The notes under the pieces are model-generated. The model did no database searches and was not told the origin of the DNA. It worked only from the letters and a program-made list of their open reading frames with translations. A stretch of 64,000 bases of DNA from Lepiota brunneoincarnata (Eukaryota; Basidiomycota; Agaricomycetes; Agaricales; Agaricaceae). Of this stretch, positions 24,838-60,861 are shown piece after piece. Both the position numbers and the translations under genes were made by a program. Position 1 is the stretch's first letter; every line of letters begins with the position of its first letter. Location: positions 2,170,001 to 2,234,000 of the forward strand of contig JAEBUN010000005.1 of the NCBI GenBank assembly GCA_023014365.1, read 5' to 3'.

Positions 24838-25498
24838 TGTTAGAGCCGGTGCGGATCGGGACCGAGGCGGAGGGTCGGGGTGGTAACCTTGTTATAAGTT
24901 AACCGGGGGACAGGGCGAAGTCAGTACGTAGACTTCGGGACCGAGGCGGAGTACGTCGGGCGGGGGGTTGGACTTGCGGCCTCAGCGTATGTGCTGTGCC
25001 CTCCTACTGTCCTAGTCCGTATTTCAGGAAGTCGGGGCTGAAGCGGAGTGAGGCAGAAGAGAGGAGAAGATAGAGAACAGGGAGCTGGTCCGCTGCTCGA
25101 TTCGATTATCAGACTGAGGAGTACAAGCCAAGTACCTACGGTATATATACTACTGGCCTTACGAACTATGACTCGTACTGACTACGTGCAGAGCGGAGCG
25201 GAGACCGATCTAGTTACAAACGGATTACGAACGGATTACGAATGGAATGGAAATGGGTACAGGTATGGAGACTAATAACGTATCTTGACTACAGACGGGA
25301 AATGGAGACGGGGGTATGAGACACCGAGGGCCAGGTGACCACGGCACGTGTGGAGGTGGTCGCGTGATCGGGGCAGGGGGTTGCGGTCGGAGCAGGTCGG
25401 GGCCGAGTCGGAGGGCAGAGGGTTGTTGTGTGGAACACACGTGGAGTCGAGAAGCCGAAGTTTAAATGATTAGACTCTGAGTTGGCATGGATATGACA
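24838..25498 (-). repeat. Element A 3' LTR
   Basis: Read on the coding (minus) strand it begins TGTCATATCC and ends GGCTCTAACA. 661 bp, same length as its partner at 32007-32667. Confidence 0.93.
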
Positions 25499-25514
25499 GT
25501 GCCCCCCCTTTAGG
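25499..25514 (-). promoter_or_regulatory. Polypurine tract of element A
   Basis: On the coding strand the sequence CCTAAAGGGGGGCAC abuts the 3' LTR, as expected for the plus-strand primer of reverse transcription. The same tract is at 51219-51232 in element B. Confidence 0.75.
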
Positions 25515-25573
25515 GCCAAGCCTCGAGGCCCAAGGTGGTCTAGGCCGGGGCCCATCGGAAAGTTCCGGCAGGG

Positions 25574-25580
25574 TATAAAA
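25574..25580 (+). promoter_or_regulatory. TATA box of the antisense accessory gene in A
   Basis: TATAAAA within GGGTATAAAA lies 56 bp before the ATG at 25630, outside the LTR. The same GGGTATAAAA core precedes the antisense gene of element B (51151-51157, minus strand). Confidence 0.65.
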
Positions 25581-25629
25581 ACGGTGAACTGGTTCGATTC
25601 CAAAAAACACAACTTGACCTCTTACTCCC

Positions 25630-26693
25630 ATGAGCAGACAACCCTCCCGACAACCAACTGCCGCGGAGCGCAAGGCGCAATTGTTGAGGGAGAAGGCGGA
25701 ACGAGAGGAGTGAGAGCGGTTGGAAATCGAGAGGCTGGAGGAGGAGGAGCAACGAGAGGAGGAGGAGCGGCAGCGGATGATAGCGCTGCGCCAGCGACAA
25801 GCGGAGGAGTGGGCGAGAGAGCGTATGGCGGAAGATATCAGGCGGCAACAAGATGAGGCTGCCGAGGCAGAGCGTCGGGCGATCCGGACCCAACTCGTCG
25901 CAACGACTACGGGGGCCTCGTCGAGCTGTCCGTCGGAAGAACCGATGCAGGTAGATACTGAGGAGTCGGATTCCGAATACACGGATAGGGACGAGGCGGA
26001 AAATAAGGAGGAGGAGGAGGAGGACAAGGACTCCGGGGACACAGGGGGTAAGGGAAAAGCAAGGGCGAGGGCAGCCCCGCGATGGGGCCATGTGAACATA
26101 TTCGGGGGTGAGAACCCCTGCTGGAGGTGTGAGCAAGATGGGGTCCAGTGTGAGGTCGCCGGCGGGTAAGTCATTTTGAGGGTTTCCAGGCTACATACTG
26201 ATAGTTTTTTAGTAACACCAGGAGTTGCCGTCGGTGCAGCAAAATGAAAAAACGGTGCGGGGGTCAAGAGGAGACGGAGCCGAGCGGGGCCGGGGGGATG
26301 TCGGGCCAACAATTTGAAGGTGAGTGAGGAATTTCTGACTGTGAGGTTTGCTGACCAAATGATCCCGTAGAGCTGAAGCGACTTATCGAGGAGGGGCACC
26401 AGAAGACCCTCAAGCAGGTCAATATCATGGAGGTGCGGCTTGCACAGGCCATCACTCGATTGGGGGAGAGGGTGGACAAGGTCGAGCTGACGGCTGGCCG
26501 TTATGAACAGTTACGGCGTTGGGAGGCGCAGGTGGATGGTAACTGGTCAAGTAGGGGTATTACGGAGACGGAGGAGACGGAGGAGTCGGAGGAGTCAGAG
26601 AGCATCGGAGGTATTTCGGAAGAGGAGGTGCGAGGTATGATGGAGGATGCGGCGGCGCCGCCCCGTACCTCTGGGAACGATACGGACAAGTAG
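25630..26693 (+). CDS. Antisense Zn2Cys6 regulator-like protein encoded in element A
   Basis: Opposite in strand to gag-pol, between pol and the 3' LTR. Exon 1 (25630-26165) begins MSRQPSRQPTAAERKAQ and holds a long E/R-rich helix, an acidic SDSEYTDRDEAE segment, a basic GKGKARARAAPR patch and CWRCEQDGVQC. Intron 26166-26212 (GTAAGT...TTTTAG) joins in frame to exon 2 (26213-26319) with CRRCSKMKKRC. Together this is C-x2-C-x6-C-x9-C-x2-C-x6-C, exact Gal4-type spacing. Intron 26320-26370 (GTGAGT...GTAG) joins to exon 3 (26371-26693), a heptad-like helix (MEVRLAQAITRLGERVDKVE) and an acidic tail. An in-frame TGA at 25711-25713 aligns with CGA (Arg) in element B. The stop at 26691-26693 faces the pol stop across 59 bp. 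Function as a DNA-binding regulator is inference. Confidence 0.75.
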
Positions 26694-26752
26694 TTTGTAC
26701 TTGTCCAATAATATTTTTTGTTTCTTGGTGTGGTGGGTGGTCAGCGGAAGAT

Positions 26753-29700
26753 TCAGAGTGAATGGAGGGGACCAGGCTTAGAGGGGTAAGAGGAGTGGAA
26801 AGCCTCTACTAGATTGGTAGCATGTTCAAGCTCAGTTGCCGGTAACCACGAGGATTCTTCTTCAGTATCTTCATAACCTAACCAGATGACTTTATAGAGG
26901 AGCTTGCATGCGCGGTGCCGATCAATCTTCGAATCGACGATGCGGGCAATCTCGTATTCTGGTTCACCGTCAATAGAAACTGGCGCAGGTGGCGGCTCCA
27001 ATCGGGTGGGTATGGTGTTAGGCGTAGCCGGTTCAAGCATGGAAACATGGAAGACGGGGTGTACCCCACGCATGGAATCAGGAAGTCGGAGTGTAAAGGA
27101 ATGGGTACCTGCTTGTGCAATGATCTCATAAGGCCCAAGGAACTTTTCGGAGAGTTTTTTGGAAGGACGGGTGGTGCGGAAGAATTGGGCTTTCACGAAT
27201 ACCTTTTGTCCAACCTTGAAGTCCGGGGCAGGGAGTCAGCGGGCGTCGGCGGAGGTCTGATACCGTTGCTGGGCTAGCAATATTTCAGACTTCAAGGTGG
27301 TATGTAGGTCGTCGAGGTCAACAGCAAAATGGCGGGCCCGAGCGGAGGCGAGATCGCGTTCAGGATGAACTGTGATGTTCGGATGGTATCCTTTATTAGC
27401 GAAGAACGGGGAGATACCGGTGGTGGCACTAGGAGCGTTGTTGTAAGCAAACTCAGCTAGTGGTAGTAATTCAGACCAATTGTCCTGTTGGTAGTTACAA
27501 TAGACCCGGAGATATTGTTCCAGGGTCTGGTTGGTGCGTTCCGTCTGTCCGTCGCCTTCTGGATGGTAGCCCGAAGTGAAATGTAACTTCATATCGAGGG
27601 CTTGTCCCAATGAGCGGAAGAAGTGGGAGACGAATTTGGAGCCGCGGTCGGAGGTAACATGTTCGGGTATGCCGTGCTTGGAGAAGACGTGGAGGACGAA
27701 TAGGCGGGCGAGGTCGGAGGAGGTGACGGTATCATAAGTCGGGATGAAGAGGGATTGCTTGGTGAGTCTGTCAACGATTACTAGGATGGCGTCGTAGCTG
27801 GAGGAGGCGGGGAGTTTTTCGATGAAGTCCATGGAGATTGAATTCCAAGGGTGTTCGGGAATGGGGAGTTGTTTGAGGAGACCGTAGGGACGGTGGCACT
27901 GGGGTTTAGACCTCATACAGGTGGCACAAGACTTACAGAAATCCTTGACGAAGGTGCGGACACTAGGCCAGGTGTACTCGCGCCGGATGAGCTCCAGCGT
28001 TTTATTCTGACCGAAGTGGCCGGCTAGGACGTGATCATGCTTGTACTGGAGGACCCGAAGTTGGAGATTGTCGGCATCAGGGACATAGATTCTGTCGTCT
28101 AAGAGGAGGAAACCTTTATCATTAACTGACCAACGGCCTTCTGGGCTGGCAAGATGGGCAGAAGTGGTCGGATCCGCTGGTAGGGCGGTGAGGATATCGC
28201 AGTGTAGCTGATCGAGGTCCATGACTACAGCTGCGCGAAGGGAAGGAGCGTAAAGAGTGGTGGCACGGACGGAGGCCGTGAGTTGTTCATGAGTGAACAC
28301 AGGCCGGAAGTTGTGCAGGTTGACTGATGCATAGTTGCTATTCCCCCCTTTAGGGTAGACGTCCCATCGTCTAGTTAGGGCATCAGGCTTGGTGCCGAGG
28401 CGGCTGGGTCGGAACCGGATGACGAGGTGGAATTGGGATAGGAACTCGGACCAACGAGCTTGGCGGCGAGTGAGGATTTTGGTGGTGCAGAAGTATTCGA
28501 GGTTTTTGTGGTCGGTGACTACATCAATAGTAAGAGGGGCACCCTCAAGATAGTGCCACCAGATGCGAAAAGCCTCGAATATCGCCAAGAGTTCCTTGTC
28601 GTGGGTGTCATAATTAAGTTTGGCCGTGTTAAAGGTGCGGGAATGGAATGCAACGGGGTGAACCTCCCCATCATCAGTGATGATAGAGAGGATAGCCGCA
28701 AGGGCGTAGTCGGAGGCGTCGGTCTCGACAATGATCTGAGCGTCGGGGGCCCAAGGAGTGAGGATGGGAGTGGATATGAATGCTTCCTTCAGAGAGTTAA
28801 AGGCTTCACGACATTCGTCAGTGAAATTCCATTTCACATCTTTGCGGGTGAGGCGAGTGAGCAGAATGACGATGTTGGAGTAACCGTGAATGAAGTGACG
28901 GTAGAAGTTGGCGAAACCTAAGAAGGACTGGATGTCCTTGACTTTCTTGGGCTCCGGCCACTCCTGGATGGTCTTGACCTTAGATTGGTCCATTCGGAGA
29001 CCGTCGGGGGAAAGAATGTAGCCAAGATATTCCACTGTGTCGGAGTGGAACTGGCATTTGTCGGGGTGGGCGTATAGACCGTGCTGGCGGAGCCGCTTGA
29101 GGACCTCCTTGACTTGGTCACGATGGATACTGTGATTGTCGGAGTATATCAGAATGTCGTCAAGGTAGATAGTAACGCAGACGTCGAGCATGTCCTTGAA
29201 TATGTCGTTCATGAACCGCTGGAAGGTGGCGGGGGCGTTGGTGAGGCCAAAAGGCATAACCATCCATTCGAAGGAGCCGTAGCGGGTCCGAAAGGCAGTC
29301 TTCCATTCGTTGCCGTCAGCAATGCGGACTAGATGGTAAGCGTGACGGAGGTCGATTTTGGTATATACGCGAGCTTTGCGAGGGGAGTCTAAGAGGTCGG
29401 AGATGAGCGGAAGGGGGTAGCAATCCTTCTTGGTAATACGGTTGAGACCTCTAAAATCAACACATAAGCGGAGGGAGCCATCCTTTTTCTTGACGAAGAG
29501 GACCGGGGCTCCATGAGGAGAAGTGGAAGGGCGAATGAAACCAATGGACAAATGTTCGTCAATAAAATCACGTAGAGCTCCAAGCTCTGATTGTGAAAGG
29601 GAATAAATGGTACCAACCGGAGGTTGACCGCCGTCCTCTAGGTTAATCTGGAGGTCGTAAGGGCGGTGTGGAGCGAGTGTGTCAGCACGCGATTTACTGA

Positions 29701-30552
29701 AAACGTCAGCGAACTCATGGTATTCCTCGGGGATGGACAAGAGGTCAGCTGGGTCATCGGAGACAGAAGAAGACGCGGCCGATGCGGAGGCGGCGGAGAG
29801 GTTGATTCGGAATTGTTGGGAGCCAGGGAGCTTGGCAGCGCGGATAAAGGCAGGAGCGTTTATCAGGGAGATATGCGGTTTCGCAATGGGGACAGGTTGG
29901 GACAAGGTCCCGGACAGGGGTGGTGAACCTAGGTCAGGAGAGTCAGGGGTGGCCATAGGCGGGGCCGATGCGGGTGCGACGCAGGTAGAGACGGAAGCAG
30001 GATTCTCGAGTAGGGATGGCCGGAAAGTGATACTGCCCAAAACCCAGTCAATCAACGGATTGTAGCGGGTGAGCCAGTTGTGTCCTAAGACCACAGAACA
30101 GGAAGAGTCGAGCCAGGTGACATAAGTGTCCAAAATGATAGATTCACCGGAGGGGAAAGATACAGGCAGTTGCGCAAGCTCCGTAACGTAGGCATTTGAG
30201 GTCCCATCAAATAACCGAAGTTCAATAGCCGGGATGGGCGAAGTTGGAATACTATGAGAACAAACAAAAGATGAGTCCACAAAACAGTGAGTAGAACCAC
30301 TATCAACAAGAGCTTTGAAAGGAGAAAGAGAAGAGAAATCAGAACTAACTACATTGTCCGTTGTAGAAATCGGGTCCGCAGCGGAGAGTACGGAAGCGGA
30401 GACAGAAGATACAGAAGTAATTAAAGGAGAAGTTAATGTGATATGAAAGGAGTTCGGGTCGGAAAGAGCGGACGCATTGAGACGGAAACTCTCTGGGGCA
30501 CAGCAGAGTTCAATGCGATCCTCAGTCTGTGCAGAGGCCTGAGGACCGCCGA
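26753..30552 (-). pseudogene. Element A pol (protease, RT, RNase H, integrase, chromodomain), one TGA
   Basis: The frame is open from the gag end and overlaps it in -1. Protease DSGST near 30295, then HNWLTRYNPLIDW. RT has CVDFRGLNRITKKDCYPLPL, FGLTNAPATFQRFMND and catalytic VTIYLDDILIYS. RNase H has VETDASDYALAAILS and TDHKNLEYF. Integrase has the H2C2 finger (HDHVLAGHFG...CATC), MDFIEKLP, TSDRGSKFVSHF and GDGQTERTNQ. A chromodomain at the end reads EYEIARIVDSKIDRHRACKL and YKVIWLGYEDTEEESSW. A TGA at 27236-27238, after SADAR, replaces the CGA (Arg) of element B. Otherwise intact. Confidence 0.93.
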
Positions 30553-30562
30553 CTATTTTTCC
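30553..30562 (-). promoter_or_regulatory. Putative -1 frameshift site at the gag/pol junction of A
   Basis: The coding strand reads GAA AAA TAG at the gag end. A -1 slip on the A run enters a frame that stays open into protease. The same GAAAAATAG is kept at 46131-46139 in element B. Confidence 0.5.
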
Positions 30563-31953
30563 GAGCTTGGGAGAGCTGGCGCGTCTGTTTCGGGGAGCTG
30601 AGCCTGTCGGCCTTTAGCCTTGGCATCAGGGAATTTTTTCTTGTCGCAGTTAGCAGCCCTGTGATTGGGATCTGCGCAGACAAGGCAGAGGTTATTGTCG
30701 AAACGTCGTTGACATTCCTCGGGGGTTAATTTACCGTCCTTACCAAGTTTACTAGTAAGGTCGGATTTGGGCGGGGCCGATTTCTGACTGGCGGATGGGT
30801 TGGGCGGATTGCCCTTGAAGCTGGTGTTGGGCGTGCTGCCTCTGTTATTATTGGCAGGCTTGGCGGCAGGTTGCGGGTTGGTCGAGGTGGAAGGGGATGG
30901 GTTACCTCCAGGTTTCCTAGAGGCGGTCAGGTCCGAAGCGGATTTGGCGCGGGCCTTCTCGCGTTGGCGCTCCCAGTAGCGAGCGTCGATCTTCATCGCT
31001 GCTGCTCACATTTCGATGAAGGTGTCAGGCTTGCCGTCGGGCCGATTGGACAGAATGTCCTGGATGCGGTCGGGGAGGCCTTTGTAGTAGCGGTGACAAA
31101 ATACTTCGTCACCCCAGCGGAGTTGGCCAGCCAGGCGGAGAAAGTCAACGTTGTAGACGGCGATCTTCTCGTCGTAGCACATTCGGAGGGAGTCGAGCTG
31201 CTCAGCAGCTTCTCCGGTTGGATCCGCGGGACCGAAATTGGTCTGCAGCTCCAGGGTGAACTGGTCCCAGTCCTCGATCCAGTTATGCATTATTCCATGG
31301 TTGTCGGCCTCGTCGAGGCCGATTTCGAAGTGTTGCTGTGCCACGCCTGTGAGGTATGTCAACGCAAAGTTGACCTTGGTGGCGGGGATAGCAAACTGGG
31401 CTGGGTTGGTACGGAAATAGAGTCGGCATTGGAAGAGGAAGGGTTTGAGTTTGGCGGGGTCGGAACCTGTAAAGATGTCAGGTTCGCAAGCTTTGGTACA
31501 GGGAGTTCGAGGAGGCTGTGGGGCTTGAGAGTTCCCACGGCCATCCATTTGATCGGCTATGCGTTGGAAAACTCGGAGTATGAGTCTATCATGGTTGTCT
31601 CGGGTGTTGCCAGGTGGAATGTTGTTGTTGTTGTCACCGTTGTCTGATGGTTCGTCGTCGCCCGGGGGCCCGTCCCCGTTGTCAGGATAGTCATCGGGAC
31701 CACCAGGGTCGCTGGGATCAGGATTGGGGTCGGGGCCGTCGTCGGGGCCATCGGGAGTCCAGAATACTGAAGGTTGTATATCTTCAGAGAACCGGTCTGG
31801 GGTCGAGGGCGTGATAGATTGTCGGCGAGAGCGAGAAGCCCTTGGGGAGTCGGGTTGCAGTTCCTCGGAAGGAGGTTGTCGAGTGATGCGTTTGCTACAG
31901 CAAGCGGCTGGAGTTACCAGAGTGCGAGTACGGGTAACTGTTCGAGAGACCAT
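30553..31953 (-). pseudogene. Element A gag, one TGA
   Basis: ATG at 31953 (MVSRTVTRTRTLVTPA). A Pro/Asp/Asn-rich N-terminal region leads to the capsid-like part (EPDIFTGSDPAKLKPFLFQC, NFALTYLTGVAQQHFEIGLD, NWIEDWDQFTLELQTNFG). The nucleocapsid knuckle CLVCADPNHRAANC (C-x2-C-x4-H-x4-C) is followed by a Lys-rich tail. TGA at 31006-31008, after TFIEM, aligns with Arg (CGA) in element B. The stop TAG at 30553-30555 is preceded by GAAAAA, a likely -1 shift site. Confidence 0.9.
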
Positions 31954-31993
31954 GGTTAGAAAGATTCAGAGTGTGGTGGACAGGAGGAGTGTG

Positions 31994-32004
31994 AGTCTGA
32001 TAAT
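31994..32004 (-). promoter_or_regulatory. Self-priming primer-binding site of element A
   Basis: The coding strand immediately inside the 5' LTR reads GTATTATCAGACT rather than a TGG-type tRNA site. ATTATCAGACT (11 nt) is the exact reverse complement of AGTCTGATAAT in the LTR (32274-32284 by plus-strand position). Confidence 0.65.
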
Positions 32005-32006
32005 AC

Positions 32007-32667
32007 TGTTAGAGCCAGTGCGGGTCGGGACCGAGGCGGAGGGTCAGGGTGGTAACCTTGTTATAAGTTAACCGGGGGACAGGGCGAAGTCAGTACGTAG
32101 ACTTCGGGACCGAGGCGGAGTACGTCGGGCGGGGGGTTGGACTTGCGGCCTCAGCGTATGTGCTGTGCCCTCCTACTGTCCTAGTCCGTATTTCAGGAAG
32201 TCGGGGCCGAAGCGGAGTGAGGCAGAAGAGAGGAGAAGATAGAGAACAGGGAGCTGGTCCGCTGCTCGATTCGATTATCAGACTGAGGAGTACAAGCCAA
32301 GTACCTACAGTATATATACTACTGGCCTTACGAACTATGACTCGTACTGACTACGTGCGGAGCGGAGCGGAGACCGATCTAGTTACAAACGGATTACGAA
32401 CGGATTACGAATGGAATGGAAATGGGTACAGGTATGGAGACTAATAACGTATCTTGACTACGGACGGGAAATGGAGACGGGGGTATGAGACACCGAGGGC
32501 CAGGTGACCATGGCACGTGTGGAGGTGGTCGCATGATCGGGGCAGGGGGTTGCGGTCGGAGCAGGTCGGGGCCGAGTCGGAGGGCAGAGGGTTGTTGTGT
32601 GGAACACACGTGGAGTCGAGAAGCCGAAGTTTAAATGATTAGACTCTGAGTTGGCATGGATATGACA
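32007..32667 (-). repeat. Element A 5' LTR
   Basis: 661 bp. On the coding strand it has a TATATATA-type box followed about 32 nt later by the CAGTCTGATAATCG region that pairs with the primer-binding site. The right flank is the AGCAT duplication at 32668-32672. Confidence 0.93.
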
Positions 32668-32808: not shown

Positions 32809-33224
32809 TGTTATCAGAAGTCCCCTTAAACCCCCTTATCAGAAGCCTCACTGGAAGGAACTCTTATCAGAAGCATCCAAAGTATATAAATAGACAGAAG
32901 ACCTGTCATCCTGAAACAATCAGAAGTACCATCAGAACAATCTATACTTAGATAGATAAGGATATGACTCACTTACCTGGGTCCAGATATATATGGTAGG
33001 AGCATAGCCACACATAGTAGTATATAAGGATACTGTACCATACCCTTGTATCCTTATCTTAGTGTTATAAAGTTCTTGCCTCCTATACCTCTTTGCCATA
33101 ACCGGCTGGACTTATAGTGCTCCGTCGTCTCCAAGTCACGCTTAGTAGGACAGGACCAAGTCTGTATAGACATCCTGTGTTGAACTCCATGCTACTCAAG
33201 AGCGAACCCCTAACCTGGGTAACA
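32809..33224 (+). repeat. Element C 5' LTR
   Basis: Begins TGTTATCAGAAG and ends GGGTAACA. Internal short repeats of TTATCAGAAG occur three times near the start. A TATA box (TATATAAGG, 33021-33029) lies 34 nt before the sequence that pairs with the primer-binding site. Confidence 0.93.
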
Positions 33225-33225
33225 A

Positions 33226-33237
33226 AACACTAAGATA
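33226..33237 (+). promoter_or_regulatory. Self-priming primer-binding site of element C
   Basis: AACACTAAGATA, starting two bases inside the LTR edge, is the exact 12-nt reverse complement of TATCTTAGTGTT at 33055-33066 in the LTR, downstream of its TATA box. There is no tRNA-like TGG. Confidence 0.65.
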
Positions 33238-33239
33238 CT

Positions 33240-33602
33240 TTGCTGCTTATCCTCTTGCTTGCCCTCTGCTCTGCCAACATACTGAATATGTCGAGGTACT
33301 CTGTTGACTCTTCCAACATACTGAATGCGTCAAGGTACTCTGTGTTGCCAATTGCAATGTTCTCTGTAGCCATTGCTATGTTCCCACTCTCCATCCCATT
33401 CCCCCCAGCAGACCTGGCTTACCACCTCATATTCGTCTTCACGACAACTGCCACCCTCCTTGCCTACCAAATCATCACCCTAGAACTCAAATGCATCATG
33501 TGCCCCTGTCACTGTTGTGTCGTCAGATTGTGGAACCTATACTCAGGAATATCCATAATCGCCACCCAATTCTTCATACTTCTAGCGATAATTGATCGCT
33601 AG
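33240..33602 (+). other. Leader ORF of element C with tandem repeat, hydrophobic
   Basis: Between the LTR and gag an open frame of about 120 codons (first ATG near 33288) is rich in Leu/Ile/Ala and would give two or three membrane-type segments (LAYHLIFVFTTTATLLAYQI; IATQFFILLAII). Two near-identical units of about 36-39 bp (33276-33343) encode ILN-x-SRYSV twice. The coding strand is G-poor, which favours hydrophobic codons by chance, so expression is doubtful. Confidence 0.25.
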
Positions 33603-33614
33603 ACAGCTATCACC

Positions 33615-35432
33615 ATGCCACCAAGGAAATTCTTGGCCTGAGAATCCCCATCACCCCCTCCACCCAAATCAAGGAACAGAATCTCAGGACCAGGTATACA
33701 AAACCCAGATCCCAGAAGAAACCCCACACCATGACCCACTCAAACACCATTGCTGTTCTATCCCCCATCCCCATTTGATTCACCTACCCCATATGCATCA
33801 ACATCAACCCAACTTGTCACAACAACACGCACTCAAACAAGTTTTGCTGAAGAACTAGCAGAACAACAAAGAATACAACATGAAAGAGAACTAAAAGAAC
33901 ATTACGAACGACAAGAAAAGAAAGGAAAAGAAGCTGAAGAATATCATGCTAAAGCAAACCCATTAAACGACTTTGAGCTTCAAAAACTCAAATTCACCCT
34001 CAAACAACCAAGAGAACTCTCTCAATCAGAAGAAAACCTACTTATGCGTCACGAATACGCAGTAGATCAAGGAAAACCCCAAGAAGACAACGACTCTGAC
34101 GTCTATATAACAGATGACAACCAATCGGATCCCGATCCACAACCACCCGCACTACCTGTGCCAACAATACCCTTAGCCCTACCGGCTCCTCCCGTACGAC
34201 CACCACAACCCCCAGCACCACCACCGCTGCTGCCACCTGGACAACTACAAATAATGGCTGCTGCACAAAACCCAAAGGAGTTAGGACTCCTCAAACCCAT
34301 CGCCTTTGATGGAAACAGAAGACTATTCGAAGATTGGATCTTCCAATGCGAAGTATACATGCTCACTAACGCAACCACCTACAACAATGACCTCACCAGA
34401 ACCTTGTTCATCCTCTCAACGATGCAATCAGGAGATGCCCGAGCATGGGCTAGACAATACCTCCACGAGAGGAATGCCCAGACCCAACAAGGACAACCCA
34501 TAGCCATGGAGTCATGGGACAACTTCACCGCCTGGCTCAGAACCGACTTCACCCCAGCAGACGAACATGCATATGTGCATACCAAACTCCAGACCCTGCA
34601 CCAAGCAGGTAAACCAATGACTGAGTTCAACTCTCAGTTCAAGGAACTTGTCTGTCAATCCGGACTCAACGAAGATCACACCCTAATTGATCTATACCGC
34701 AAGGCAATCGACCGCTGTATTGCCATGAAAATTGATGAATCGGAAAACCCTCTGACAACCATCGCCACTTGGTACACCTGAGCCAACAAACTCGACGACA
34801 ACTTCTGCCGAATCAATGCCCTCTACGGCACCCCCAGGAACACGTTCCCCCAAAAGAACCAATACCAACCCAACCACGGACCAAGCCATCCAAACAACAA
34901 CATGCCCTATGCACAATTCTACCAAAGGAGCAATGCCCCATGTTTCACCCCATGAGACCCACATGCCATGGAAATAGACCATGCCACAATGGAAGAAGGA
35001 TTCGAAGATCCTTACCCAGAAATCCCTCAACTGGACTATGCTGAAGAAGACCTTCAAGACCCCTTGGAGATAGATGCTGTTGTCACCGGACAACAAATTA
35101 AAGCCTACCAGAACCAAGAATGCTTCCGATGTGGAGCTAAAGACCACTGGGTTAGCAAATACCCTCAACCCTCTCAAGTAAGACGCTTCCCAGGAATGCG
35201 TACAAACCCCCCTCCCCCCACGCGAAACCCCAACCGTCCCTTCCCAGGACAACAAAACACTTGTCCCGGATTCCTGAACTGGAATGCCCAACAATCACCG
35301 CAATGCAAGTACTCCCTTGCCATCGCAGAAGTTGCATCTCAGATGCACCAAATGGTCGACGACCTTGACCCTGAACTCCAACAAGAACTCCACTCTGCGC
35401 TAGCCGAAGACCCAGAGATGCGTCCCTTCTAG
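33615..35432 (+). pseudogene. Element C gag, interrupted by TGA codons
   Basis: Starts MPPRKFLA at ATG 33615. TGA codons at 33639 and 33732, near 34779 (after ATWYT) and near 34953 (before DPHAMEID) interrupt it. A Gln/Glu-rich coiled-coil region and a Pro-rich stretch precede the capsid-like part (LLKPIAFDGNRRLFEDWIFQ, LSTMQSGDARAWARQYL, AWLRTDFTPADEHAYVHTKL). The knuckle CFRCGAKDHWVSKY has Tyr where the last Cys should be. TGA positions match Arg in related elements (DPHAMEID is usually preceded by R). Confidence 0.85.
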
Positions 35433-38400
35433 GATTTTTGAAACGGAACACAGATCAATGCGCCCCTGCTCATTCCCAGAAAGACTCTATATATTCTCAC
35501 TCTCAGAAGGACACTTTCTCGATAAATTCTGTACAACTATGACTCTCCCCAAATAAATGATCTCTCTACCTACCCATCGAGATTTGGAGTGAACAGACAT
35601 CAAAACCCATGGCCATCACTGCCCTGATAGACTCAGGAGCCCAAGGGAACTTCATCTCCCACAAAGTCGTTGAATGACATGGTTATCAAACCAAATGGCT
35701 GGACCAACCAATCCCTCTTAGCAACGTTGACAGAACTGACAATCAACATGGCAAGATCCATGAATACATCAAGATCAGAACCATCATCGATGGAAGAGAT
35801 TGCACGCTAGAAGTGTATGTCACAAACACTGGTGAGAAAGACCTCATCATCGGATTTCCCTGGTTGGAACAATACAATCCTGACATCAACTGGAAGACCA
35901 AGACATTCTCTTGGAAACCTCAAATCGATCACCAGGACTTTTCCAAACTCCTCAGAACCCTACGATGACCCGTCGAACTTAACTCCATTGCCATGGACAT
36001 AATGGCTGGAAAAACCTCCCAACCTGAGGAAAACCCTGAAGAATACATCAACTTGTCAAACATTGATCTTGATACCTTCTCTCTAGAAAGAGAAATGAAC
36101 CCAATGCTTCTAACCCCATTAGAAGTAAATGCCAAAGCGACACACGCCACAACGCTCCACAATGAGCAACACAACCCGACAAAATCGGCAAACCAAAAAG
36201 GAAAACAACCGGAATCAAACAAGGAACCACCCAAGATCCCTCAGAGATTTGCCCGATGGGCTAAAATATTCAACAAGAAAGCCTCCAAACAATTCCCACC
36301 ATCAAGGATGTTTGATCACGAAATTGAACTAAAACCAACATTCAAAGCAAAATCAATGAAACCCTATCAAGTGGCACCTGCCGAAGAAAAAGCACTAAAG
36401 GAATTCATAGATGAAAACCTCTGAAAAGGGTACATCTGCCCCTCAAAATCCCCTATGGCATCACCCTTCTTCTTTGTTGCCAAGAAAGGAGGAGACCTCC
36501 AACCCTGCCAAGACTATCGTTATCTAAATGATCACACCATCAAAAATGCTTACCCAATCCCCATGATTTCCTCTATCATGGACAAACTCAAAGGAGCTAA
36601 GTACTTCACTAAGCTCAACGTCCACCTAGGATACAATAACGTCAGAACCAAAGATGGCGATCAATGGAAAGCAGCGTTCAAGACTCCCATGGGTCTTTTC
36701 GAACCAACTGTCATGTTTTTCGGACTTTGCAACAGTCCCGCAACATTCCAACATATGATGGACACATTATTCTCCGAAATAATGGAGAAAGGAGGAATTA
36801 TCATCTATATGGATGATATCCTAATCTACAGTAAAACTCAGGAAGAAACCAACCGACTTACAGAAAAAGTACTGCAGATCCTGCAGGAAAATGACCTCTA
36901 CCTCAAAACGGAGAAATGCAAGTTCAACAAACAACAACTTGAATATCTCGGCATGATCATCACGCCAGATGAGATCAAAATGGATCCCAGAAAACTCAAG
37001 GGAATAGAAGACTGGCCAGTGCCGAAAACAGTCTGACACATTTGGAAATTCATTGGATTCTGTAACTTCTATTGGAAGTTCATCCGCAGCTACTCCCACC
37101 ACATCAAACCCCTGAACCAACTCCTTTCCAAATCGAACAAATTTGAATGGAAAGAAGAACAACAGAAAGTGTTCGAAACGCTCAAGAACAAATTCTTAAA
37201 GGAACCGGTACTCCTCATACCCAACTCCACAAAACCCTTCAAAATAGAAGCTGATGCTTCCAAATTCACATCAGGAGCTGTCCTGTACCAACACGACATC
37301 AACGGAATATGGAAACCTGTATCATTCTATTCAAAGACATTTGGACCAGCAGAACGCAATTACAACATCTATGACAGGGAACTTCTCACAATTATCCGAG
37401 CCCTCAAAGAATGGCACCATTACCTCCTTGGCAGCCCCCATACTGTCCGTATCAGAACGGACCACCAGAACCTCACATACTGGCGCAAACCCCAGAAAAT
37501 CAACTGCCGACAAGCACGATGGGTACAGACCCTCGCCAACTACAACTTCAAACTAGAACATGTCCCAGGATCAAAGATTCCTGCACCAGATGCTCTATCA
37601 AGATGTCCAGACCACATCCCTGATGAGGATAACAACAATGAAGACATCACCATGCTTCCAAACAACCTCTTTGTCGCCACCACCGACATAGAAGGTCAAA
37701 ACTTGATCACAGTACTCCCAGAACACCTCTTTATCACCACTGTTGATATGGAGCTCCAAGAAAGAATCATGGAATCACCCAAATATAATGCTAGAACCAC
37801 CGAAGCATTCAAACTCCTAAAGGAAACCCACCCTAATGCCACCAATAAAGAATTCAGAACAGTTCCAACCCCAAGTGGTCCACTCCTCACGCTCCAAGAA
37901 CGTGTCATCGTTCCAGAAGACCTCCAACTCAGATGCAATGTCATCGCAAGATACCACAACCATCCTACATGTGGTCACCCTGGAGAACAGGAAACATACC
38001 GCCTTGCCAAGAAAGAAGTATATTGGCCAGGAATATTGATGTTCATTAAGAACTACATCAAAGGCTGTCCAGAATGCCAGCAACACAAAATCATATGCTG
38101 ACCGGATCACACACTGACTCAACTGATCCCACCATCATCTTCCAAGTGCCCATTTGCTCAAATCTCATGGGATCTTATCACTGGTCTACCGCCTAGTGCT
38201 GGCCATAATGCGATATTGTCCGTGGTGGACCACGGCCTTACGAAGGGGGTAATTTTCATCCCAACCTCAGATCGATCAAACACTGATGACATCGGACGAC
38301 TATTAATAGAAAAGGTCTTCACTAGGTTCGGATTACCCAACAAAATCATATCAGATTGAGACCCCAGATTCACCACCAACTCCCTCCGAGAACTAGCCAA

Positions 38401-39280
38401 ACATCTAAACATCCAACAAGCATTCTCAACCACATACCATCCCCAGACAGATGGTTCTACCAAACAATACAACCAAGAAATCGAGACCTATCTTGCCATA
38501 TACTGCACCAGGAACCCTCTTGACTGGTCAGAAACCCTCCCTATCACTGAGTTCGCACACAACTCCAAAATACATGCCTCAAGGCAGAAATCCCCATTCA
38601 AACTCATCATGGGATACAACCCTCCGCTGATACCCACAGTAATGGAAACTTCGAACTTTCCATCAGTAGATGAAGGCATCAGACTCCTTGATGATGCCAG
38701 AAAAGAAGCACATGCAGCACATCAACTCTCCGCCAATATTATGAAACAAAGAACCAGAAGAACTATCAAACCCCTTGAAACATGTCAGAAAGTATGGCTA
38801 GAAGCCAAGAACCTCAAACTCCCCTTCATCTCCAACAAAATATCCCCAAAAAGACTAGGACTTTTCCTTATCTCGGAAGTCTTATTGCCACTCACATACA
38901 AATTAAAACTTCCGATCAAATGGAAGATACATCCGGTATTCCACCAAAACCTCTTAACCCCATACAATGAAACAGAAGCATATGGACCTCATCCGATGCC
39001 ACCGCTACCAGACATCATTAACGAAGAAGAAGAATACGAAATAGAAGCTATTCTCAATCACCGACATTATCGTGGAAAACTCCAATACTATGTACATTGG
39101 AAAGGATACTCCCACACAGAGAACCAATGGATATCCAAAGAAGATCTCTGCAACAACACCAATGAATACTTGAAAAAGTATAAAGAAGATCATCAACTTA
39201 ACAGCAACAACCAGGAACTACCCAGAACCTACCAGAAGCAACTTTGCTCTACCACCAAATGTACTCAAAAATGTCCATGA
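35433..39280 (+). pseudogene. Element C pol with chromodomain, several TGA codons
   Basis: A single frame, -1 to gag. Protease ALIDSGAQGNFIS near 35625, GFPWLEQYNPDINW. RT with [32 protein letters not shown] and catalytic [12 protein letters not shown]. RNase H IEADASKFTSGAVLYQ and RTDHQNLTYW. Integrase H2C2 (HNHPTCGH, CPECQQHK), SWDLITGLP, IISD*DPRF and HPQTDGSTKQYNQEIE. The chromodomain reads EYEIEAILNHRHYRGKLQYY then VHWKGYSHTENQWISKEDL. In-frame TGA codons follow VVE, LRTLR, ENL, PKTV, KIIC and IISD, where families have Arg. Not translatable as one protein. Confidence 0.9.
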
Positions 39281-40296
39281 ACAACCTTGACCTTGTCCAC
39301 CCCCAATCCACTCCCCCCTTCTCCTCCTCCTCTACCACCTCCTCCATTGTTATCATTGACGACCCCAACATTGAAAGAAATTCTCCAACTCCAATCCCAA
39401 GGCCATGCCCATTCACGCCCTCCAATACCTTCATCAACGTCAGGGATGAAACTCCTGACCCCAACGCTACACCAGAACCAGAACCAGTAGCCATCTTACC
39501 CATCAACTTCCACACAATGGGAGTAAAGAACGTAGAACCAATTGTAACCAGCATAGAAGATGTACGCACCATCACTTCCACCCAATTCCTCACCGACAAA
39601 GTTAACAAAGCTCCCATCAGTGACTACGACCGAGAAGTATGGTCGAACTACACCCATCATGTCAAACAGACAAAACTCCTCCATGACACTTTCCACACCC
39701 AGCAAAAATGGACCGAAAACTATGAGGCATTCCTCCTCACACACCAAGGACTCATGTCCCAAATGCCAAGAAAGAAACAACCTGAAGTAACACCTCCCAC
39801 AAATAAAATCACTTCAACCCCTACATCAGGAAGAAAGAACCCCATCGGAACCAACAACTCCTTCCGTAAAAACACCGCCAAATCAATCCCATTACGGAAC
39901 TCACCTGCTCCCATTCAACAAATTCCAAACCCCAAACCCAATGATAGATCCCGATGCATCCAATGCAAACAAGTCAGACACTGGGCTATGGACTGCCCCC
40001 AATTCACTTGCCTTGGTTGCAAACAATATGCCCCAGGCCATTACTCATACGATTGCATCAAATACAGATGCCTACACTGTGGAGTATTCCAACCTCACCA
40101 TAAATGAACAGAATGCCCCTCAAAAGGAACAAGGCATACACCTTATAACAGACCTATGGCAGCTTGACCTCAGAATACCCCATCCCTCCATTACCAATAC
40201 TTGGGACTCAAATACCCTGAGGAAGATGACTTCAATGATGAATACGATAATATCACCATGTCTAACATGTGTGGAGAACCAGTAGGAGACTTCTAA
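39259..40296 (+). pseudogene. Element C ORF3: sense accessory zinc-knuckle protein
   Basis: Starts at ATG 39259 (MYSKMSMNNLDLVHPQ), overlapping the pol stop at 39278-39280. A Ser/Thr/Pro-rich N-terminus is followed by a helical part (YDREVWSNYTHHVKQTKLLH) and a basic linker. A cluster of zinc motifs then reads CIQCKQVRHWAMDC (C-x2-C-x4-H-x4-C), CLGCKQYAPGHYSYDC, and CLHCGVFQPHH followed by TEC. A TGA at 40105-40107 sits inside the third motif, a second TGA lies near 40162, and the frame then runs on in an acidic tail (YPEEDDFNDEYDN) to TAA 40294-40296. Function unknown; possibly an RNA- or DNA-binding accessory protein made from a separate or reinitiated reading frame. Confidence 0.65.
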
Positions 40297-40371
40297 AGAA
40301 CTCCACTCAAACACAACAGAAGGAAAAGATGTAAATGGTTATAGTGGAATATAACCTTAGAAATGGGGTAA

Positions 40372-40787
40372 TGTTATCAGAAGTCCCCTTAAACCCCCTT
40401 ATCAGAAGCCTCACCGGAAGGAACTCTTATCAGAAGCATCCAAAGTATATAAATAGACAGAAGACCTGTCATCCTGAAACAATCAGAAGTACCATCAGAA
40501 CAATCTATACTTAGATAGATAAGGATATGACTCACTTACTTGGGTCCAGATATATATGGTAGGAGCATAGCCACACATAGTAGTATATAAGGATACTGTA
40601 CCATACCCTTGTATCCTTATCTTAGTGTTATAAAGTTCTTGCCTCCTATACCTCTTTGCCATAACCAGCTGGACTTATAGTGCTCTGTCATCTCCAAGTC
40701 ACGCTTAGTAGGACAGGACCAAGTCTGTATAGACATCCTGTGTCGAACTCTGTGCTACTCAAGAGTGAACCCCTAACCCAGGTAACA
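40372..40787 (+). repeat. Element C 3' LTR
   Basis: 416 bp, nearly identical to the 5' LTR. The few differences seen are transitions (for example CACTGG/CACCGG, CCGGCTGG/CCAGCTGG, CTCCGTCG/CTCTGTCA). Followed by the duplication CCCTG at 40788-40792. Confidence 0.93.
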
Positions 40788-44018: not shown

Positions 44019-44679
44019 TGTCATATCCACACCAAACCTAGAGCTTAACCATTAGGCTTCGGCTTCTCGACTCCACGTGTGCTCCACACGACAACCCTAT
44101 GCCCTCCGACTCGGCCCCGACTGGCTCCGACCGCAACCCTTTGCCCTGATCACGCGACCTACCTCTACACGTGCCACAATCACCTGACCCTCGGTGCTCC
44201 CATTGTCCAGTTCTCCATTCTCCGTCCATAATCAGAATACGTTACCAGTCTCCATACCCGTACCGGTCTCCATTCCATTCGAAATTATTCGTAATCCGCT
44301 TGTAACCATATGGGTCTCCGCTTCGCTCCGCACGTAGTCAGTACGAGTCATAATTCGTCGAGCTAGTAGTATATATACCGTAGGCACTTGGCTTGTACTC
44401 CTCAGTCTGATAATCGAATTGAGCAGCGGACCAGTCCCCTGTTCCCTATCCTCCTCTCTCTCTGCCTCGCTCCACTTCGGCCCCGACTTCCTGAAATACG
44501 GACTCGGACAGTAGGAGGGCACAGCACATAAGCTGAGGCCGCAAGTCCACTCTCCGCCCGAAGTACTCCGCCTCGGTCCCGCCGTCTACGTACTGACGTC
44601 GTCCCGTCCCCCGGTTACCTTATACCAAGGATACCACCCCGACCCTCCGCTTCGGTTCCGACCCGCACCGGCTCTAACA
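44019..44679 (+). repeat. Element B 5' LTR
   Basis: 661 bp, TGTCATATCC...GGCTCTAACA. Differences from the 3' LTR are mainly CpG transitions (for example CTTCGG/CTTTGG, CGTGTG/CGTATG, CCGTAGG/CCATAGG). Confidence 0.93.
44370..44414 (+). promoter_or_regulatory. Element B LTR promoter and self-priming region
   Basis: TATATATA at 44370-44377 is followed 32 nt later by TCAGTCTGATAAT (44402-44414), the likely RNA 5' end. This 13-mer is the exact reverse complement of ATTATCAGACTGA at 44682-44694, three bases inside the LTR edge. Confidence 0.65.
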
Positions 44680-44681
44680 GT

Positions 44682-44694
44682 ATTATCAGACTGA
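44682..44694 (+). promoter_or_regulatory. Self-priming primer-binding site of element B
   Basis: ATTATCAGACTGA, 13 nt complementary to the LTR site at 44402-44414. No tRNA-type TGG primer site is present at the LTR edge. Confidence 0.65.
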
Positions 44695-44732
44695 AACTCC
44701 TCCTGTCCATTACACTCTAATCCTTTCTAACC

Positions 44733-46139
44733 ATGGTCTCTCGAACAGTCACCCGTCCCCGCACTCGGGTAACTCCAGCCGCTCGCCGTAGCAAACACAT
44801 CATTTGACAATCTCCTTCTGAGGAATTACAACCCGACCCCCCGAGGGTTTCTCCCCCTCACCAACAATCCATCGTGCCCTCAACTCCAGACCGGTTCAGT
44901 GAAGATATTCAACCTTCACTATTCCAGACTCCCGACGGCCCCGACGGTGGCCCCGACCCAAATCCCGATCCCAGCGACCCTGGTGATCCCGACGACTACC
45001 CTGACAATGGGGACAGACCCCCGGACGACGACGAACCATCAGACAACAACGACAACAATAACAACATTCCGCCTGGCAACACCCAAAATGACCATGACCA
45101 ACTCCTGCTCTGAGTTTTCCAACGAATAGCCGATCAAATGGACGGCCGTGGGAACTCTCAACCCCCACAGCCTCCCCGAACCCCCCGTACCAAGGCTCGC
45201 GAACCTGACATCTTTACAGGTTCCGACCCCACCAAACTCAAACCTTTCCTCTTCCAATGTCGACTCTACTTCCGTACTAACCCGGCCCAGTTCGCTATCC
45301 CCACCACCAAGGTCAACTTCGCGTTGACGTACCTTACCGGCGTGGCCCAGCAACACTTCGAAATCGGCCTCAACGAGGCCGACAACCACGGAATAATGCA
45401 CGATTGGATCGAGGACTGGGATCAGTTCACCCTGGAACTGCAGACCAATTTCGGTCCCGCGGATCCGACCGGAGAAGCTGCTGAGCAGCTTGACTCCCTC
45501 CGAATGCGCTATGACGAAAAGATCGCCGTCTACAACGTCGACTTTCTCCGTCTGGCCGGCCAACTCCGCTGGGGTGATGAGGTATTCTGTCACCGCTACT
45601 ACAAAGGCCTCCCCGACCGCATCCAGGACATTCTGTCCAATCGGCCCGACGGCAAGCCCGGCACCTTCATCGAAATGCGAGCAGCAGCGATGAAGATCGA
45701 TGCTCGCTACTGGGAACACCAACGCGAGAAGGCCCGCGCCAAAGCCGCTTCAGACCCAACCGCCTCTAGGAAACCTGGAGGCAACCCATCCCCTTCCACC
45801 GCGACAAACCATCAACCTGCCGCCAAGCCTGCCAACAGTAACAACAAAGGCAGCACCCCCAGTAATAACATCTTCAAGGGCAATCCGCCCAACCCGTCCG
45901 CCGGTCAGAAATTGGCCCCGCCAAAGTCCGACCTTACTAGTAAACTTGGTAAGGACGGTAAATTAACCCCCGAGGAACGTCAACGACGTTTCGACAATAA
46001 CTTCTGCCTTGTCTGCACAGATCCCAATCACAGGGCTGCCAACTGCGACAAGAAGAAATTCCCTGACGCCAAGGCTAAAGGCCGACAGGCTCAGATTTCC
46101 GAGACAGACGCGCCGGCTCTCCCGAGCTCAGAAAAATAG
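44733..46139 (+). pseudogene. Element B gag, two TGA codons
   Basis: ATG 44733 (MVSRTVTRPRTRVTPAARRS). TGA at 44805-44807 and 45111-45113 interrupt the N-terminal region; at the second site element A reads Arg (LILRVFQRIADQM). From 45114 the frame is open through the capsid-like part (EPDIFTGSDPTKLKPFLFQC) and the knuckle CLVCTDPNHRAANC to TAG 46137-46139. A downstream start at 45138 (MDGRGNSQPPQPPR) would still give the capsid/nucleocapsid part. Confidence 0.9.
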
Positions 46140-49100
46140 TCAGCGGTCCTCAGGCCTCTGCACAGACTGAGGATCGCATTGAACTCTGCTGTGCTCCAGA
46201 GAGTTTCTGTCTCAATGCGTCTGCTCTTTCCGATCCAAACTCTCTTCATATTACATTAACTTCTCCTTTAGTTACTTTGTTACCCTCTGTTTCTGCTCCT
46301 GTACTCTCCGCTTCGGACCCACTTTCTACAACGGACAATGTAGTTAGTTCTGACTTTTCTTCTTCTTTTTCTCCTTTCAAAGCTCTTGTTGATAGTGGTT
46401 CTACTCACTATTTTGTGGACTCTTCTTTCGTTCATTCTCATAGTATTCCAACCTCATCCATCCCGGCTATTGAACTTCGGTTATTTGATGGGACCTCAAA
46501 CGCCTACATTACGGAGCTTGCGCAACTGCCTGTATCCTTCCCCTCCGGTGAATCTATCATTTTGGACACTTATGTCACCCAGCTCGACTCTTCCTGTTCT
46601 GTGGTCTTAGGACACAACTGGCTCACCCGCTACAATCCGTTGATTGACTGGGCTTTGGGCAGTATTACTTTCCGGCCATCCCTACTCGAGAATCCTGCTT
46701 CCGTCTCTACCTGCGTCGCACCCGCATCGGCTCCGCCTATGGCCGCCCCTGACTCTCCTGACCTAGGTTCACCACCCCTGTCCGGGACCTCGTCCCAATC
46801 TGTCCCCCTTGCAAAACCGCACATCTCCTTGATAAACGCTCCTGCCTTTATCCGCGCTGCCAAGCTCCCTGGCTCCCAACAATTCCGAATCAATCTTTCC
46901 GCCGCCTCCGCATCGGCCGTGTCCTCTTCTGTCTCCGAGGAACCGCCTGACCTCTCGTCCATCCCCGAGGAATACCACGAGTTCGCTGACATTTTCAGTA
47001 AATCGCGTGCTGACACACTTGCTCCACACCGCCCTTACGACCTCCAGATTAACCTAGAGGATGGCGGTCAGCCTCCGGTCGGTACCATTTACTCCCTTTC
47101 ACAATTGGAGCTTGGAGCTCTACATGATTTTATTGACGAACATTTATCTATTGGTTTCATCCGCCCCTCCACTTCCCCTCATGGAGCCCCGGTCCTCTTC
47201 GTCAAGAAAAAGGATGGCTCCCTCCGCTTATGCATTGATTTTAGAGGTCTCAACCGTATTACCAAGAAGGACCGCTATCCCCTTCCGCTCATCTCCGACC
47301 TCTTAGACTCCCCTCGCAAAGCTCACGTATATACCAAGATCGACCTCTGCCACGCCTACCATCTTGTCCGCGTTGCTGACGGCGACGAATGGAAGACCGC
47401 CTTTCGGACCCGCTACGGCTCCTTCGAATGGATGGTTATGCCTTTCGGCCTCACCAATGCCCCTGCCACCTTCCAGCGGTTCATGAACGATATATTCAAG
47501 GACATGCTCGACGTCTGCGTTACTATCTACCTTGATGACATTCTGATATACTCCAACAACCATAGTATCCATCGTGACCAAGTCAAGGAGGTCCTCAAGC
47601 GGCTCCGCCAACACGGTCTATACGCCCGCCCTGACAAATGCCAGTTCCACTCTGACACAGTGGAATATCTCGGCTACATTCTCTCCCCCGACGGCCTCCG
47701 AATGGACCAATCTAAGGTCAAGACCATCCAGGAGTGGCCTGAGCCTAAGAAAGTCAAGGACATCCAGTCCTTCTTAGGCTTTGCCAATTTCTACCGTCGC
47801 TTCATTCACGGATACTCCGACATTGTCGTTCCGCTCACTCGCCTCACCCGCAAAGATGTGAAGTGGAATTTTACTAATGATTGTCGCGAGGCCTTTAACT
47901 CCCTGAAGGAAGCATTTATCTCCGCCCCCGTCCTCACTCCTTGGGTCCCCGACGCTCAGATCATTGTCGAGACCGACGCCTCCGACTACGCCCTTGCGGC
48001 AATCCTCTCTATCGTCACCGACGATGGGGAGGTCCATCCCGTTGCATTCCATTCCCGCACCTTTAACACGGCCGAACTCAACTATGACACTCACAACAAG
48101 GAACTCCTGGTGATATTCAAAGCCTTTCGCATCTGGCGGCACTATCTCGAAGGTGCCCCCCTTGCTATTGATGTGGTCACTGACCACAAGAACCTCAAAT
48201 ACTTCTGCACCACCAAGATCCTGACTCGCCGCCAAGCTTGTTGGTCCGAGTTCCTATCCCAATTCCACCTCGTCATCCGTTTCCGACCCGGCCGCCTCGG
48301 CACCAAGCCTGACGCCCTAACTAGACGATGGGACGTCTACCCTAAAGGGGGGAATAGCGACTATGCATCAGTCAACCCGCACAACTTCCGGCCTGTGTTC
48401 ACTCACAAACAGCTTGCGGCCTCCGTCCGTGCCACCACTCTTTACGCCCCTTCCCTTCGCGCAGCTGTAGTCATGGACCTCGATCAGCTACACCGCGATA
48501 TTCTCGCCGCCCTACCAGCGGATCCAACCGCTTCCGCCCATCTTGCCAGCCCAGAAGGCCGTTGGTCGGTTAATGATAAAGGTTTCCTCCTCTTAGACGA
48601 CAGAATCTACGTCCCTGACGCCGACAATCTCCGACTTCGGGTCCTCCAGTACAAGCATGATCACGTCCTAGCCGGCCACTTCGGTCAGAATAAAACGCTG
48701 GAACTCATCCGGTGCGAATACACCTGGCCTAGCGTCCGCACCTTCGTCAAGGATTTCTGTAAGTCTTGCGTCACCTGTATGAGGTCTAAACCCCAGCGCC
48801 ATCGCCCCTACGGTCTCCTTAAGCAACTCCCCATCCCCGAACGCCCTTGGAATTCAATCTCCATGGACTTCATTGAAAAACTTCCCGCCTCCTCCGGCTA
48901 CGACGCCATCCTGGTAATCGTTGACAGACTCACCAAACAATCCCTCTTCATTCCGACTTATGATACCGTCACTTCCTCCGACCTCGCCCGCCTATTCATC
49001 CTCCACGTCTTCTCTAAGCACGGCGTGCCCGAACATGTTACCTCCGACCGCGGCTCCGAATTCGTCTCCCACTTCTTCCGCTCATTGGGACAAGCCCTTG

Positions 49101-49942: not shown

Positions 49943-50011
49943 GTTACTGACCACACATCACACCAAGAAACAACCATGTATTAAACAAACCCAAAAAACA
50001 ACCCCGTACAA

Positions 50012-51097: not shown

Positions 51098-51150
51098 GGG
51101 GGTAGGAGGTCAAGTTGTGTCCTCTCAAATTCGAATCAGTTCACCTTTTT

Positions 51151-51157
51151 TTTTATA
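51151..51157 (-). promoter_or_regulatory. TATA box of the antisense gene in B
   Basis: On the minus strand GGGTATAAAA lies about 55-60 bp before the ATG at 51097, at the same place as in element A, in sequence outside the LTR. Confidence 0.6.
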
Positions 51158-51232
51158 CCCTCATGGAATTTTCCGGTGGGCCCCGGTCTAGACCGCCTTG
51201 GGCCTCGAGGCTCGGCCCTAAAGGGGGGGCAC

Positions 51233-60857: not shown

Positions 60858-60861
<4 letters not shown>

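Follow-up and report, generated by a model that had tools for sequence, protein, structure and literature searches.

Can a retrotransposon of the Ty3/Gypsy group encode a regulator of its own on the strand opposite gag-pol, in a gene interrupted by introns? The question is raised by element A, a chromodomain Ty3/Gypsy element in the 64,000-nucleotide stretch of Lepiota brunneoincarnata DNA analysed here (the window).

Element A and its antisense gene

Element A spans 24838-32667, with gag-pol on the minus strand. A three-exon gene occupies 25630-26693 on the plus strand, between pol and the 3' LTR. The features of the element, and the second copy of the gene in the window, are as follows.

24838-25498, minus strand: 3' LTR of element A, 661 bp, 98.6% identical to 32007-32667
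25499-25512, minus strand: polypurine tract adjoining the 3' LTR of element A, predicted from sequence, in near-invariant columns
25574-25581, plus strand: TATA box of the antisense gene, TATAAAAA, in the internal region, outside the LTR
25630-26165, plus strand: exon 1, with the charged N-terminal part, an acidic stretch, a basic stretch and the first cluster half, C-x2-C-x6-C
26166-26212, plus strand: intron 1, 47 nt, GT..AG
26213-26319, plus strand: exon 2, with the second, basic cluster half, C-x2-C-x6-C, and the linker
26320-26370, plus strand: intron 2, 51 nt, GT..AG
26371-26693, plus strand: exon 3, with a coiled-coil-like helix and the acidic tail
26753-27196, minus strand: 3' end of pol of element A, chromodomain-type C-terminus, tail to tail with the antisense gene
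27236-30280, minus strand: main pol frame of element A
31006-31953, minus strand: gag of element A (Retrotrans_gag)
32007-32667, minus strand: 5' LTR of element A, from the LTR pair comparison
50015-51097, minus strand: antisense gene in element B (copy L048), broken by an early stop and with GG at donor 2

The initial annotation had proposed this antisense gene with its two introns, its own TATA box and a tail-to-tail meeting with pol, and all of these were confirmed. The start ATG is at 25630 and the stop TAG at 26691-26693; the pol stop is at 26753-26755, leaving 59 bp between the two genes. Splicing of exon 1 to exon 2 makes the pattern C-x2-C-x6-C-x9-C-x2-C-x6-C, as had been claimed, with three cysteines from each of these exons. 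An unspliced message stops between the cluster halves, because a TAA or TGA follows the donor in the exon 1 frame. Exon 1 of the window copy has an in-frame TGA (25711-25713), and the antisense gene of this copy is not functional. The pol of element A is also interrupted, one frame being split into 27236-30280 and 26753-27196.

Element B (44019-51893) lies in the opposite orientation, and its LTRs are 98.2% identical. A Retrotrans_gag frame is followed by a pol in which Pfam placed, in this order, RVP_2, RVT_1, RNase H, Integrase_H2C2, rve, SH3_Tf2-1 and Chromo. The Ty3/Gypsy chromovirus order (gag, protease, RT, RNase H, integrase, chromodomain) was thus found in element B, and element A is 93% like element B over 3582 nt.

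The window holds other elements as well. Element C (32809-40787) belongs to a second chromodomain Gypsy family. It has a sense-strand frame of 287 aa (39244-40107, plus strand) that overlaps the pol end and extends toward the 3' LTR. The frame contains two zinc-knuckle-like CCHC motifs, plus part of a third one, and is an extra nucleocapsid-like ORF after pol. Two LINE-like elements lie in inverted arrangement at 53894-59703 (minus) and about 59221-64000 (plus). Reverse transcriptase and endonuclease domains were found in 53894-57778 of the first; the second was recognized by repeat similarity and translation only. Weak hits near 58.0 and 62.9 kb were rejected as zinc knuckles of LINE ORF1.

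Copies of the gene and selection on its spliced frame

When the host genome (55.6 Mb, 95 contigs) was searched at the DNA level, at least 40 matches were obtained (40 scored of 202 candidates). A 35-base pattern from exon 2, with up to three mismatches allowed, was found at no fewer than 93 sites genome-wide, 45 of them exact, and the reversed control gave none. Sixty copy-bearing stretches, element B included, were combined with that of the window to give 61. L073 and L074 were dropped for large insertions, leaving 59 aligned copies, among which the most numerous subfamily is represented by few. The copies were retrieved by searching with the antisense gene region, so that elements without the gene would be missed.

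The splice sites were kept in 57 to 58 of the 59 copies. Donor 1 was GT in 57 (one AT, one gap) and acceptor 1 was AG in 58 (one gap); donor 2 was GT in 57 (one GG, one gap) and acceptor 2 was AG in 57 (one AA, one gap). The remaining intron dinucleotides had a mean top frequency of 0.73, and 5 of 74 reached 0.96. A TAA or TGA stood right behind the donor G of intron 1 in all 58 copies with letters there. The start ATG was present in 54/59 copies, and exon 1 length differences were multiples of three in 52 of the 56 with a readable start. Exon 2 was 107 nt long in 54/59 copies, whereas intron 1 had nine different lengths between 47 and 71 nt.

Random decay of the cysteines, which the initial annotation had named as an outcome against the gene, was not found. 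All six were kept in 52/59 copies; in four of these (L017, L040, L071 and L075) a stop codon interrupts the cluster. In the seven copies without the pattern (L014, L060, L067, L070, L072, L076 and L077), the causes include point changes, frameshifts and truncations. The spliced frame was open over more than 300 aa in 19 copies and not in the other 40; among the 19, L031 has a premature end and an altered donor, and L067 is one cysteine short. Place, orientation and introns of the gene were unchanged in copies down to about 72% DNA identity. Judged from these alignments of copies found through the gene itself, the antisense gene is probably a trait of the retrotransposon family, and its structure is conserved beyond chance.

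Two of the copies, L038 and L037 (G000:C7:658460 and 665616), encode identical antisense proteins; they are on one contig, equally oriented and separated by 7156 bp. The spacing might be that of a tandem LTR-internal-LTR-internal-LTR array.

Parts of the gene were exchanged between subfamilies. The exchanged block starts at exon 2 or intron 2, includes exon 3 and reaches the pol C-terminus; it was 96-100% identical behind differing backgrounds of U3, leader and exon 1, with 88-99% in exon 2 itself. L047 is 99-100% identical to L037 up to intron 1 and 96-100% to L064 from exon 2 into pol. L059 is 95-99% identical to L063 up to intron 1 and 97-100% to L064 from intron 2 to the pol end, and L041 is 97-100% identical to L015 from U3 through exon 1 and 94-100% to L064 from intron 1 to the pol C-terminus. 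Junctions between the blocks are close to the intron separating the cluster halves, or slightly before or after it. Such mosaic elements would be explained by template switching during reverse transcription.

Selection was analysed in 17 of the 19 open copies; L038, whose protein is the same as that of L037, and L031 were left out. The spliced frame had a median dN/dS of 0.24, with values below 1 in every pair and no stops (130 of 136 pairs, identity up to 97%). Five competing frames gave 1.03, 1.38, 1.21, 0.40 and 1.65, and all had stops. The value of 0.40 came from the shadow frame, whose third positions mirror those of the antisense gene. The pairs are not independent, and the choice of open copies favours the frame via the absence of stops, not via an excess of silent changes. 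With transversions only, seven of nine chosen pairs gave 0.16-0.35; L059-L063 gave 0.55, and L037-L015 gave 1.02 on few changes.

When the gene was divided into seven partly overlapping segments, the spliced frame had the lowest pooled pN/pS in every one. Its values were 0.20 in the N-terminal part, 0.24 in the cluster, 0.27 in the exon-3 helix and 0.40 in the acidic/basic part; in the acidic tail it was 0.55, against 0.64 in the shadow frame. Exon 1 gave 0.28 and exons 2-3 gave 0.34. For the last 145 codons of pol, the same approach gave 0.04 in the true frame and 0.10 in the shadow frame (45 of 55 pairs, 11 copies); compared with this part of pol, selection on the antisense gene is weaker (0.24 vs 0.04). 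Stops separate the frames poorly: of 54 copies, exon 1 was stop-free in 22 in the coding frame and in 18 and 14 in two minus frames. By the dN/dS and pN/pS estimates, the spliced antisense frame is under purifying selection. We consider it almost certain that it is a real protein-coding gene of the element.

Protein searches gave one relative outside the genome, the 106-aa fragment P0001. Its last 102 residues match exon 3 of L042 without a difference and its first residues read intron 2, so that it probably comes from the same species or a very close one and does not show splicing. A further protein search for relatives of the antisense protein found none, and none of the 74 pattern matches from a scan of viral contigs was confirmed as a relative.

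The zinc-cluster protein, its promoter and candidate target sites

The protein of about 320 aa opens with a charged N-terminal part (about 90 residues), followed by one acidic and one basic stretch; then come the cluster, a linker, a helix and an acidic tail. Fungal zinc-cluster activators have the order cluster, linker, coil, together with acidic stretches. The basic stretch could serve as a nuclear signal. A heptad-like helix and acidic segments had been claimed, and both were supported, the helix by heptad periodicity above shuffles and by structure prediction. The heptad periodicity of exon 3 exceeded that of shuffles (fractions 0.005 and 0.014), and that of the N-terminal part was not significant (0.27). 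An AlphaFold model from three sequences gave one helix at residues 2-60, with 48 residues at a pLDDT of 90 or above.

The initial annotation had ascribed to the cluster the exact spacing of Gal4-type zinc clusters. The Gal4-type pattern is C-x2-C-x6-C-x(5-12)-C-x2-C-x(6-8)-C, and Gal4 itself has x6 between the halves; the x9 found here falls within the range, and our pattern test used x6 within the halves. The spacing held up, but a standard domain was not found. The Pfam Zn_clus profile (PF00172) scored 14.8 bits for the 293-aa fragment of the window and 20.9 for a 60-aa core, below the curated cut-off of 21, and the halves are apparently swapped. The exon-1 half alone scored 15.5 bits and matched profile positions 15-31, which are the second half of the family. 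The Pfam scan gave nothing beyond Zn_clus in the antisense protein, and no transposase-28 match in the 293-aa fragment of the window. Comparison with solved structures gave no significant match; two zinc-cluster factors appeared only at E 3.8-6.8.

The host genome has at least 25 Zn_clus matches above the Pfam cut-off, 20 of the 25 found were fetched, and a host-cluster profile was built from eight clusters. In three alignments to this profile, positions 1-22 were matched by the exon-2 half and positions 20-33 by the exon-1 half (20-28 in L067). In a direct score test, the permuted order exceeded the collinear order by 1 to 8 bits in nine of ten distinct clusters, and L059 went the other way by 3.6. 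As controls, 8/8 host first halves and 15/17 host second halves were placed correctly, and the exon-2 half gave little discrimination. Compared with host Gal4-type clusters, the halves are likely in swapped order, with the basic half second; the host profile and the Pfam placement of the exon-1 half agree on this. Both halves resemble those of host Zn_clus domains.

The TATA box TATAAAAA had top-base frequencies of 0.95-1.00 over 58 copies, and at least L036 has lost the TATA. The sense promoter has a separate conserved TATATATA within the LTR. Some parts of the antisense leader are well kept, for example the stretch immediately 5' of the ATG, and others vary.

Candidate target sites were sought in the LTR and leader. 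CGG/CCG triplets were kept in all four LTR types at 12 of 21 positions in U3, against 28 of 54 other CpG triplets; the counts were 3/14 vs 4/15 in the leader and 14/17 vs 24/33 in R-U5. By these counts CGG/CCG showed no clear excess of conservation over the other triplets. In each of the four LTR types, the 8-mer GGGCCGAG occurs both in U3 and in the antisense leader (shuffle fraction 0.025). This was a post hoc test with a simple shuffle, one of three k tried, and k=6 gave 0.117; the leader version is altered in the window copy. GGGCCGAG may be regarded as a weak lead to a target site.

In the alignment of LTR and leader, CpG columns had decayed, with a mean top frequency of 0.818 (107 columns) vs 0.919 for the 746 others. 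This suggests methylation-linked C-to-T decay, and the loss of many arginine codons would fit.

Proposed role and known systems

Our main reading, to which we give a probability of roughly 0.6, is that the element has a conserved antisense accessory gene encoding a putative zinc-cluster regulator, most likely acting on the element's own promoters. The host would transcribe the gene from its own promoter and splice it to yield the protein of about 320 aa, which would enter the nucleus through the basic stretch. The cluster would bind two zinc ions, and dimerization through the helix would be followed by DNA binding. The most likely targets would be the promoters in the LTR U3 and/or the antisense leader, with the protein as an activator or a copy-number brake. 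Taken separately, a nuclear DNA-binding regulator is probable, about two to one in favour; that such a regulator acts on the element itself is more tentative, at slightly under an even chance, although self-regulation would be the likeliest job.

Introns in the reverse complement are not recognized by the spliceosome. The introns of the antisense gene are opposite the strand of the genomic RNA and would there be present as their reverse complement, out of the spliceosome's sight. An intron-bearing gene would survive in a retroelement because the spliceosome cannot remove antisense introns from the retrotransposition intermediate. A broader proposal is that fungal chromoviruses encode an antisense sequence-specific transcription factor with a circularly permuted zinc cluster, its halves on exons swapped between subfamilies, so that the elements reshuffle specificity while the introns are shielded from loss. 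As a whole, we regard this as speculative and rather unlikely.

The most serious alternative is a nuclear life-cycle protein that is not a regulator, such as a nucleic-acid- or chromatin-binding chaperone, or a nuclear import or integration-site factor working with the chromodomain integrase. The 3' half of the gene is exchanged with the pol C-terminus as a single block, the cis-site tests gave no convincing target, and the plant counterparts are described as nuclear or SMC-like in the available text of PMC7264820 and PMC11963269. This co-movement, however, may only reflect neighbouring ends, and the six-cysteine cluster, linker, helix and acidic tail have the layout of a fungal zinc-cluster activator. 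We consider such a protein unlikely, though worth about one chance in four. Much less probable is that the antisense transcript acts and the frame is incidental, for example through double-stranded RNA formed with the genomic RNA that feeds silencing. Such a role is suggested for antisense aORFs in the accessible part of PMC7264820, and read-through transcripts of the two genes would overlap; against it, the spliced amino-acid sequence is under purifying selection, exon 1 changes length by multiples of three and the splice sites are conserved, all of which points to a protein. The transcript may conceivably have a role of its own beside the protein.

It is very improbable that a single element recently captured a zinc-cluster gene of the host in a one-time event. 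Such genes were available, with at least 25 host Zn_clus matches over the cut-off, but the same place, orientation and introns recur in copies down to about 72% DNA identity, and the cluster is under the Pfam cut-off and looks permuted. The copies seen, all found via the gene itself, fit a gene present in every subfamily since the root, and an old capture at the family root is possible. The least probable of all, hardly credible in our view, is a chance open frame or the shadow of a sense-strand frame, such as an env-like ORF3 at 25470-26399 on the minus strand. The window copy does have an open minus-strand frame of 309 aa, and the stop-free counts of the exon 1 minus frames (18/54 and 14/54) are near the 22/54 of the coding frame. 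Across the open copies, however, the minus-strand frames have stops and dN/dS of 1.21, 0.40 and 1.65 vs 0.24, and in exon 1 alone their pN/pS is 1.28, 0.40 and 1.52 vs 0.28. A sense-strand ORF or chance frame is thus disfavoured by both measures.

Our preferred reading remains the antisense zinc-cluster regulator. A recognizable cluster of a fungal gene-control class makes the role of antisense retrotransposon genes directly testable. Action of the protein on the LTR would mean that fungal retrotransposons have a regulatory loop of their own, with a regulator that might affect host genes as well. That antisense placement protects introns would be a general point on retroelement gene structure.

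Antisense genes at this position are known from other Gypsy elements. Boty brtn was reportedly described by Zhao et al. (2011), and Grande gene23 reportedly by Gomez-Orte et al. (2013). Boty, of Botrytis cinerea and Sclerotinia, is a fungal gag-pol-chromodomain Gypsy element in which brtn, an extra antisense gene, likewise occupies the interval from pol to the 3' LTR; in the available text of the sources (PMC7264820, PMC8365987, PMC4227169, PMC5987419), no zinc-cluster domain is named, and the comparison with brtn is one of published descriptions. Gene23 of maize Grande is an antisense accessory gene in the same place, transcribed from its own promoter and encoding a nuclear protein, but it belongs to a plant element and, in the accessible descriptions by which we compared it, no zinc cluster is reported (PMC7264820, PMC11963269). 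Proteins of this kind are said to be without clear similarity to known proteins (PMC7264820, in part). The Retand TRP28 antisense ORFs also share the position, occur in 97% of the recently active element clusters and have predicted DNA binding; unlike our gene, they belong to a plant non-chromovirus lineage, have a transposase-28 domain and lie in a much longer pol-LTR region (PMC11963269, in the text available). The words zinc and intron are absent from the main text of PMC11963269, and antisense and zinc from that of PMC3248453, a survey of fungal LTR elements. The available parts of PMC10799480, PMC5408684 and PMC8220671 held no closer case. Among titles and abstract openings found, none named a retrotransposon-encoded Zn2Cys6 protein; subscription papers lay mostly outside this search, which does not imply absence from print. 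The function of antisense accessory genes in Gypsy elements is called unknown in the accessible text of PMC7264820 and PMC11963269.

Gal4-type Zn2Cys6 activators share with the antisense protein the six-cysteine spacing, a basic lysine-bearing loop, the linker, the heptad helix and the acidic stretches; here, unlike in these activators, the halves are apparently reversed, the cluster is mid-protein with a Pfam score below the cut-off, and no other domain was found. HBZ of HTLV-1, with which a parallel had been drawn, is a bZIP protein whose promoter lies in the LTR of an animal retrovirus. HBZ is a regulatory protein encoded on the antisense strand of a retroelement, close to the 3' LTR, and that part of the parallel stood; its bZIP and LTR promoter differ, no homology to the antisense zinc-cluster gene is implied, and the plant elements and fungal Boty are closer than HBZ, which is mentioned in the available text of PMC11963269. 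A retrotransposon-encoded antisense transcription factor had also been put forward as an unusual idea. Antisense genes at this position are already known (Grande, Retand and Boty brtn), but an antisense retrotransposon gene with a fungal zinc-cluster domain appears to be new.
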